A stretch of DNA of 64,000 bases from Sporichthya brevicatena. GTDB taxonomy: Bacteria > Actinomycetota > Actinomycetes > Sporichthyales > Sporichthyaceae. The position numbers and the translations under genes are program-made. The stretch lies in assembly GCF_039525035.1 (NCBI RefSeq), contig NZ_BAAAHE010000007.1, forward strand, positions 62,001 through 126,000, given 5' to 3'. Positions within the stretch are counted from its first letter, which is position 1. Every line of letters begins with the position of its first letter. Positions 34,022 to 59,412 of this stretch are shown here, piece by piece. Below the pieces are notes generated by a model. The model had not been told where the DNA came from. It saw only the letters and a list, made by a program, of their open reading frames with translations, and did not search any database.

Positions 34022-34948
34022 GTGTTCGTGGGAACGAACAGGTGGTCCGAGGCCGACGTGCCGGACCAGACCGGACGGGTCGCAGTCGTCACCGGCGCCA
34101 ACACGGGCCTGGGCTTCGAGACCGCGCGGGTGCTCGCGCAGCGGGGTGCGAGCGTCGTGCTCGCGGTCCGCAGTCTCGACAAGGGGAAGCAGGCGGCGGA
34201 CCGGATAGCCGCGGCGGTGCCCGGCGCCGACGTGACGGTGCAGGAACTGGACCTCGCGTCGCTCGCGTCGGTCCGTGCGGCGGCGGCGGAGCTCGCCGCC
34301 GCGTACCCGCGGATCGACCTGCTGATCAACAACGCCGGCGTCATGTACACGCCGTACGCCAGGACCGCCGACGGCTTCGAGATGCAGTTCGGCACCAACC
34401 ACCTGGGGCACTTCGCGTTGACCGGCCTGCTGCTGCCGCCGCTGACCGCGACGCCGGGCTCGCGCGTGGTGACGGTCAGCAGCATCGGGCACCGGCTCCG
34501 GGCGAAGATCAACTTCGACGACCTGCAGTGGGAGCGCAAGTACCACAAGGTCGGCGCCTACGGGCAGTCGAAGCTCGCCAACCTGATGTTCACCTTCGCA
34601 CTCGACCGGCGGCTGGTCGCGGCCGGCGTCCCCACCCGCGCCCTGGCCTCCCACCCCGGCGGCGCGCAGACCGACCTCGCCCGCCACATGCCGAAGCCTG
34701 CCCAGTTCTTGGTGAAGGCCCTCGGCCCCGTCGCGGCGCAGTCCGCCCTGCGCGGCGCTCTTCCGTCGCTGCGGGCCGCCACCGACCCGGCCGCCCAGGG
34801 CGGGGAGTACTACGGCCCCGGCGGCTTCGGCGAGATGCGCGGTCTCCCCAAGGTCGTCGGATCGAGCGCGCAGTCGAAGGACGAGACTCTTCAGGAGCGA
34901 CTCTGGACCGTCTCCGAGGAACTGACGGGCGTCACGTACCCGCTGTGA
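34022..34948 (+). CDS. Short-chain dehydrogenase, retinol dehydrogenase-like
   Basis: GTG 34022 is favoured over GTG 34028; neither has a clear ribosome site, and the frame is open upstream through the ferredoxin gene. The product is 308 residues. It has [27 protein letters not shown], a Ser in TVSSIGHRL and Y-G-Q-S-K (catalytic Tyr/Lys). The extended C-terminus is typical of the retinol/WW-domain oxidoreductase branch, which acts on hydrophobic alcohols. Its 3' end overlaps the convergent ligase gene by 17 nt. Confidence 0.9.
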
Positions 34949-36437
34949 GCACCTGGTCCCGCAGGAGGCGCTTGGACACCTTGCCGGTCGGGGTCAGCGG
35001 GAGCTGATCCGCCGTCAGGACCCAGGTGCGGCGGGGGACCTTGTAGGTGGAGATCCGCTCGCGGGCCCAGTCGACGACCTCCTTGGCGAGGCGGTCGTGC
35101 TCGTCGGTGGTGCTGACGAGAACGGCGCCGACGTCCTGGTCGCCCGTCTCGGTCTCGACGCCGAAGACGAAGGCCTGGTCGACCTCGGCGTGCTGGACCA
35201 GCAATGCCTCGACCTCGGCCGGGGAGATGTTGATGCCCTTGGACTTGATCATCTCGTAGCTGCGGCCGACGTAGTGCAGTCGGCCCGCGTCGTCGAACCA
35301 GCCGAGGTCGCCGGTGCGGAACCAGCCGTCCGGGCCGAAGGCGGCCGTGTTCTGCTCGGGGGCGTCGAGGTACCCGGGAGTGATCGTGCCGCGGATCTGG
35401 ATGTGCCCAGTCGTCCCGGCCGGCGCGGGCGTGCCGTCGTCGCCGACGATCCGCACCTCCTGCGTCGGCAGCGGCGTCCCCTGCGTGGTCATCCGGATCT
35501 CGGGCGGGTCGGAGTACGACGTGATCGTCGAGTGACCGTGACCCTCCGTCAGGCCGTACGCGTTACAGACGTCGGTGACGCCCAGCTTTTCGATCGCGAT
35601 ACGCAGGTCCTCGGGGGTCGCGTTGGCCGTGCCGGTGCGCAGCGTCGAGACGTCCCGGTGCGCGAGGTCGGGGTGGGCCGCCAGGGCACGGGTCACCGGG
35701 GCGACGCCGTAGTAGACCGTGCACCGCTCGCGCTCGATGAACTCCAGCGCCGCGGCCGGTTCGAACCGCTCCTGCACGCACAGCGTCGCGCCGTGGACCA
35801 GCGCGTTGGGCAGGGCGTTCGAGCAGCCGAAGACGAAGAACAGCGGAAGGGCGAACCAGAACCGGTCGCCGTCGCGGACGCCCTGGCGCTCCCCGACGGC
35901 CCGGGCGGTGCGGACCATGCCACCCTGCGTGAGCGGCACGGCCTTCGGCTCGGCCGACGATCCGCTGGTGAACAGCAGCAGGGCGAGGTCGGTCTCGCCG
36001 GCCGGCGCCGACCGCAACGTCTCGCATGCACTGGAGATGTCATCTCCAGTGCATGCGGTGGAGATGACATCTCCATCGGGGCCGCCGAAGGAGTCGTAGT
36101 TCTCCGGGGTCAGAACCACGCGCGGCGTCGCGCGCGCCAGCACCGCGTCGAGCTCGGCGGGCTTGTACCAGGTGTTCAGGGGCAGGGCGCAGGCTCCGGC
36201 GGCGTGCGCGCCCAGCAGGCCGACGACCCAGCGCAGGCCGTTCGGCAGGCAGAGGCCGACCCGATCGCTCGGTTGCACGCCGGCGGCACGAAGCCGGGCG
36301 GCCAACGCCGCGGCGCGGACCGCGACCTCGCCGTAGGTCGCCCGGCCGTCCTCGGCCACGACGAACTCGCGGTCGGGGTGCGCCGCGGCGACGGCGGCCA
36401 GCACCTCCGGAGTCGTGACGCCGGGGACGGGGAACAC
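34932..36437 (-). CDS. Acyl-CoA ligase (AMP-forming) with an in-frame palindromic insert
   Basis: A 501-residue ANL enzyme starting at GTG 36437. The -10 box TACCCT is only 6 nt upstream, so the message is probably leaderless. Motifs are [18 protein letters not shown] (P-loop), [41 protein letters not shown] and [10 protein letters not shown]. Just before the P-loop, the segment [16 protein letters not shown] is encoded by a nested palindrome (36024-36075) and looks like an insertion tolerated in a surface loop. It activates a carboxylate to acyl-CoA and is divergent from the CoA transferase at 36506. Confidence 0.9.
36024..36075. repeat. Nested palindromic element inside a coding sequence
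   Basis: GCATGCACTGGAGATG (36024-36039), one base, then its exact complement (36041-36056) makes a 33-bp near-continuous palindrome. It is followed by TGGAGATG-A-CATCTCCA (36059-36075), a second palindrome repeating the same TGGAGATG core. The element lies in frame in the ligase gene at 34932-36437, in a linker before the P-loop. Confidence 0.85.
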
Positions 36438-58161: not shown

Positions 58162-58217
58162 TGAAAAAAAGGGTGACACCCCTTACTGCGCAGTAAGAGG
58201 TGTCACCCTTTCTTCAC
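58162..58217. terminator. Long hairpin, copy A of a repeated palindromic element (terminator-like)
   Basis: An almost perfect inverted repeat centred on CTGCGCAG, with arms AAGGGTGACACC(C/T)CTTACTG and an A-rich/T-rich outer part ending GTGAA/TTCAC. It lies between the amidohydrolase stop (58135) and the convergent AbiEi-like gene stop (58221), so it can end both transcripts. The same element recurs at 59363-59412 on the other side of that gene. Confidence 0.85.
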
Positions 58218-59362: not shown

Positions 59363-59412
59363 AAGAAAGGGTGACACCCCTTACTGCGTAGTAAGGGGTG
59401 TCACCCTTTCTT
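59363..59412. terminator. Long hairpin, copy B of the repeated palindromic element
   Basis: Perfect 23-bp arms (59363-59385 and 59390-59412), beginning AAGAAAGGGTGACACCCC, around the loop GCGT. It is nearly identical to copy A at 58162-58217. It lies upstream of the AbiEi-like gene and downstream of the DoxX gene (stop 59428), both on the minus strand. It can terminate the LLM-DoxX transcript before it reaches the AbiEi-like gene. Confidence 0.88.

Follow-up and report, generated by a model that had tools for sequence, protein, structure and literature searches.

Paired palindromes in frame in an acyl-CoA ligase gene of Sporichthya brevicatena probably belong to a genus-restricted, REP/BIME-like repeat family

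The best-known palindromic repeats lying in frame within genes are those of Rickettsia and Wolbachia; elsewhere there are scattered cases among tagged REPs. The Rickettsia palindromic elements (for example RPE-1 to RPE-7) and the Wolbachia WPE are dispersed palindromes, some of which sit in frame in unrelated genes, where the peptides they encode are solvent-exposed or flexible and where orthologues share the site (PMC10969869, PMC3767692). REP/BIME sequences are palindromes of 20-40 bp, often clustered, which are found 3' of genes, where the neighbouring ORFs converge or run in one direction, and in a minority of cases within ORFs (PMC3733652). A survey of tagged REPs mentions untagged REP-like families, one of them in M. 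tuberculosis, and the word Actinobacteria does not appear in its text (PMC3733652).

We examined a palindromic element in a window of 64,000 nucleotides (the whole stretch of DNA that was analysed) from the actinobacterium S. brevicatena. A first-pass annotation had described a 33-bp near-perfect palindrome, together with a second palindrome of the same core, inserted in frame in an acyl-CoA ligase gene. Both palindromes are present in an intact 501-aa ORF that matches Pfam AMP-binding (E 1.5e-71) and AMP-binding_C, and the first turned out to be 35 bp long with perfect arms (Table 1). Core copy 1 forms the middle of this palindrome, and copies 1 and 2 start 27 bp (9 codons) apart. A scan of the window for the core, allowing up to 3 mismatches, returned 2 matches, a number reached by no shuffle; because only 0.07 were expected, the two ligase cores are not due to chance. 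As annotated, the extra peptide lies just before the P-loop, where it occupies a variable loop. The AlphaFold model of the window ligase has a mean pLDDT of 89.5, and its sole internal stretch below 50 is residues 120-124, within the inserted peptide, as would be predicted for a flexible loop. The codons GGA and GAT in the element each account for 4.4% of their synonymous set in this genome. We propose that the element probably comprises two units of a family of short palindromic repeats that is dispersed through the genome and confined to this genus, a family that is untagged, RAYT-less and REP/BIME-like and has RPE-type copies in coding sequence.

Table 1. The ligase gene and the palindromic element inside it (positions in the window).
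Feature	Position	Strand, arms or reading	Basis or remark
AMP-binding (ANL) acyl-CoA ligase-like gene, 501 aa, intact ORF	34932..36437	-	Pfam, orthologue and paralogue
35-bp perfect palindrome CGCATGCAC-TGGAGATGTCATCTCCA-GTGCATGCG	36023..36057	17-bp arms 100% complementary, 1-nt centre T	Hairpin in both strands' folds
Core copy 1, TGGAGATGTCATCTCCA on +	36032..36048	Read on - as T.GGA.GAT.GAC.ATC.TCC.A = GDDIS, residues 131-135	
Core copy 2, TGGAGATGACATCTCCA on +, 17 bp, centre A	36059..36075	Read on - as GDVIS, residues 122-126 (G122-D-V-I-S126)	
P-loop-type motif, ligase residues 153-165	35943..35981	-	Next conserved block past the element

A genome-wide search for further copies, proposed with the annotation, gave 122 exact matches to the core in the 5.2-Mb genome (0 for a reversed-pattern control) and 60 in one congener, some within genes and some between them. 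A third congener lacks the exact core and gave one 2-mismatch match only. The core was not found in the family's other genomes or in the other actinobacteria sampled, and 2 of the 394 genomes in a sample of the class carry it. When the genomes of 84,980 species were scanned for the 17-mer, 66 stretches were returned, mostly singletons, and those examined have quite different flanks. Matches in Anaerostipes sp. 992a have one common set of flanks and represent one repeated sequence, and those in Nostoc are one homologous sequence. A phage origin was considered and set aside; 6 viral contigs carry the 17-mer, with a single copy in each. In this sampling the palindrome family is restricted to the genus. 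An Rfam search gave nothing but sub-threshold matches to human-type microRNAs, caused by the hairpin, and a literature search by sequence among open-access papers found no description of the palindrome. An ori/ter pattern was considered and set aside: few repeat clusters lie near the origin in the congener chromosome (3 of 42 within 0.5 Mb of dnaA, at 1.788 Mb), yet the chromosome-wide KS p is 0.38. In Thiobaca trueperi, the 17-mer lies inside a seemingly different dispersed repeat with shared flanks, ccgcgtccagcgcgatatgcg... (L197, L209, L210, L231, L232, L233).

The repeat unit is a 17-bp palindromic core, TGGAGATG[A/T]CATCTCCA, and positions -11 and +11 are usually C and G, respectively. 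It occurs as 43 single copies and in 62 arrays of 2-5 units, which have a period of 36-37 bp and a GC-rich spacer of weak consensus. The centre of the core is A/T in 105 cases and C/G in 0 across 526 kb of this genome, and 64 versus 2 in the congener. In single copies, pairing between the two flanks continues beyond the core to a greater extent than in shuffled flanks, through base pairs that differ between loci, and the strands fold as strong hairpins (z -5.5 to -9.3 against shuffles). The 8 nt beyond the core show no U-tract, holding 1.6 T where 1.55 would be random and where a second palindrome family, described below, has 4.9. Variant palindromes with AAGAGATG/CATCTCTT replacing TGGAGATG/CATCTCCA also occur, often as inverted pairs beside ordinary copies (L048, L061, L082, L091, L169).

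To describe genomic context we used 162 exact cores, comprising 102 of the 122 in this genome and all 60 of the congener, with genes called by a custom codon-usage gene finder trained on these sequences rather than by a published caller. Though 91% of the DNA is coding, 119 of the 162 cores are intergenic and 43 (~27%) are in genes; counted by locus over both species, 27 loci are genic and 67 intergenic. Convergent regions hold 53 of the intergenic cores, tandem regions 62 and divergent regions 2 (2 were unassigned), for 5.8, 20.2 and 12.0 kb of available DNA, respectively. In tandem regions, cores are closer to the upstream stop (median 46.5 bp) than to the downstream start (110.5 bp). The family is found mainly in intergenic DNA, beside gene 3' ends.

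Within genes, all 27 loci are frame-keeping. The 43 in-gene cores are read in two frames, as GD[D/V]IS (32) or EM[T/S]SP (11), with 0 in the third, and all 20 spacings between in-gene neighbours are multiples of 3, 15 of these being 36 bp. Between genes, neighbours are 37 bp apart in 49 of 78 cases and a multiple of 3 apart in 11. Arrayed copies are not independent in these frame and spacing counts, but the pattern holds across loci: within genes only frame-keeping copies survive. Among the host proteins are ANL ligases, a type 2 glycosyltransferase, a polyketide-synthase-like protein, ScpB, MurJ, TilS, FliO and MMPL transporters, and many of the elements are located between Pfam domains or at the ends of proteins. 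A second ANL ligase (L064), ~34% identical to the window ligase, has an element at the corresponding point, in the linker ahead of the P-loop. Both species share a palindrome in an MMPL transporter, where it entails no length change relative to two homologues (48-49% identity); clean insertion is therefore not the sole route by which the palindrome appears. The annotation's reading of an in-frame palindromic element in the ligase is supported, and it has to be widened for a family that lives mainly between genes and for the MMPL case.

Relatives of the ligase were compared over the segment of roughly 17 residues that the annotation had taken to be inserted. The in-genome paralogue (78% identical) is without it, and a ligase from a related genus (66% identical) has unrelated sequence at its place. 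In the congener's orthologue (92% identical) the same two-palindrome element occupies the corresponding position; there it is 9 nt shorter, and one of its centre bases is flipped. Orthologues with the same peptide in different codons, which would have spoken for ordinary protein sequence, were not seen; it is the DNA palindrome that is kept and the peptide that changes (GDVIS versus DDIS). Elsewhere, array copy number differs at orthologous loci (4 versus 1 in ScpB, 5 versus 2, and 3 versus 1), and several arrays, including one in TilS, have no counterpart in the congener. No clear target-site duplication was recognised by eye, and places without an array in the sister species show altered flanks, not precise empty sites.

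The constraint test covered 19 unique pairs of orthologous cores, of which 9 are intergenic and 10 in-gene; pairs of unequal copy number were left out. In the intergenic core arms, 1 of 144 positions had changed where flank divergence predicts ~9 (simulated P 0.00025), and in the in-gene arms 6 of 160 had changed against ~8 expected (P 0.27). Because of these arm-change counts, which are small numbers, the intergenic copies look maintained and the in-gene copies look like passengers. The intergenic conservation may reflect selection or ongoing homogenisation, and the test fits either. Centres are flipped between A and T in 4 of the 19 pairs, and flanks show A/T differences at 4 of 1922 positions.

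How does the family compare with described systems? Like RPEs, these are dispersed palindromes that insert in frame in unrelated genes (27 loci). Unlike RPEs, with units of ~100-150 bp, they have a 17-bp core and a 36-37 bp period; they also belong to another phylum, differ in sequence and live mainly at intergenic 3' ends. They share with REPs and REPINs a short, high-copy, palindromic form and a mostly extragenic position 3' of genes. Unlike tagged REPs, they have no unpaired end tag, with GTAG in 3 and CGTC in 33 of the 162 flanks, below the random values of 11 and 76, and unlike REPs their core is itself a full odd palindrome. Unlike RAYT-associated REPs, they occur in genomes with no RAYT-type transposase gene: Y1_Tnp (PF01797) had no match in this genome or the congener, control genomes did match, and a RAYT-type mobiliser was rejected on this absence from both carriers. 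As small non-coding inverted-repeat elements in many copies they recall MITEs, but neither a clear target-site duplication nor a parent insertion sequence was recognised, and array-less places in the sister species have altered flanks. With intrinsic terminators, as represented by the second palindrome family, they have in common hairpins at gene 3' ends and, in some cases, an intergenic place that the other family fills in the sister species, but they lack a U-tract and occur in arrays and in genes. The family resembles RPEs in genes and REP/BIME between genes, departs from RPEs in unit size and from REPs in tag and RAYT, and is best filed as an untagged short palindromic repeat variant (PMC10969869, PMC3733652, PMC3767692).

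We weighed these data against other explanations. Ordinary coding sequence, a low-complexity linker that is palindromic by chance, would fit the element's place in a variable linker and its translation in an open frame, but there is next to no chance that this is the right explanation: orthologues keep the palindrome in their DNA and differ in the peptide, the element uses the rare codons GGA and GAT, and the 122 copies in the genome, with about three quarters of those sampled being non-coding, refute such a linker outright. A more serious contender, though we consider it unlikely, is that the palindrome (17-23 bp) is the symmetric-dimer site of a DNA-binding protein, which might organise the nucleoid or chromosome or act as a global regulator, with cooperative arrays at ~3.5 helical turns and sites that arise by mutation or duplication and are then selected. 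Such a binder would account for constrained intergenic cores amid diverging flanks, for a 36-37 bp spacing held despite diverging spacers, and for the coding palindrome without length change in the MMPL transporter. The nearly invariant A/T centre also fits, and a dyad-symmetric binder would permit the flips at 4 of 19 orthologous centres. However, divergent promoter regions are nearly empty (2 of 119), which argues against a promoter regulator, and no strong ori/ter pattern was found (KS p 0.38). A binder has no need of flanks that covary as complementary pairs of differing sequence outside the core; moreover, in-gene cores drift as their flanks do, and whole arrays are missing from the sister species at several loci.

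More doubtful than a protein-binding site is the possibility that the palindromes are functional RNA hairpins at transcript 3' ends, selected for termination, processing or mRNA protection, with the in-gene copies as spill-over. Intergenic copies do adjoin stop codons and occupy convergent regions, the hairpins are long and stable with compensatory arm variation, and at several loci one species has the core family where the other has the U-tract-bearing second family. Against this, the T-rich tract beyond the core is missing (1.6 of 8, as random, against 4.9 in the second family), arrays of up to five units far exceed what a terminator needs, and the in-gene copies are not explained by such a role alone. 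Because there is no U-tract, a classical terminator role is not supported.

Under the REP/BIME-like reading that we prefer, a hairpin-forming unit would be copied to new sites by a putative copying machinery, and arrays would then expand and contract locally by whole units. Since neither a mobilising enzyme nor a target-site duplication was found, mobility is inferred from gain, loss and spread. New copies would persist chiefly beside gene 3' ends, where a transcribed hairpin may be harmless or useful, and copies landing in genes would be kept only if they add whole codons, in the two tolerated frames, in flexible linkers or at protein ends. In-gene copies would drift along with the coding DNA around them and intergenic cores would be maintained, and for that reason any host function would belong to the intergenic copies, presumably as an RNA or DNA hairpin at 3' ends. 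Coding copies are best read as tolerated passengers in flexible loops.

A bolder proposal, and the one among those still in play that we hold least probable, is a new class of self-propagating odd palindromes, spreading with no RAYT or known transposase (for example by hairpin-templated copying at replication) and also overwriting sequence without length change. The A/T centre flips would then mark repeated hairpin inversion, and the class would supply the genus with ready-made in-frame linker peptides.

An actinobacterial genus thus displays the in-gene palindrome phenomenon with a much shorter unit, at 27 sampled in-gene loci in two species. It offers a natural experiment: in two close species, one and the same unit is filtered to 36 bp within genes and held at 37 bp in intergenic DNA, so that the coding-insertion filter, and what spreads and keeps RAYT-less palindromes, become directly testable.

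The second palindrome family, about AAAGGGGTG[A/T]CACCCCTTT and often in inverted pairs, shares a TGWCA centre with the core family and is found in the window at 58165-58214 and 59363-59412. Exact GGGGTGTCACCCC cores number 43 in this genome, 59 in the congener and 3 in the third congener. The 78 placed copies lie in convergent regions (45), tandem regions (31) and genes (2), with 0 in divergent regions; they have a T-rich tract beyond the stem and look like bidirectional intrinsic terminators. At L069/L159, L129/L158 and L089/L156, the same intergenic place holds the core family in one species and the second family, or other mixtures of both, in the other.
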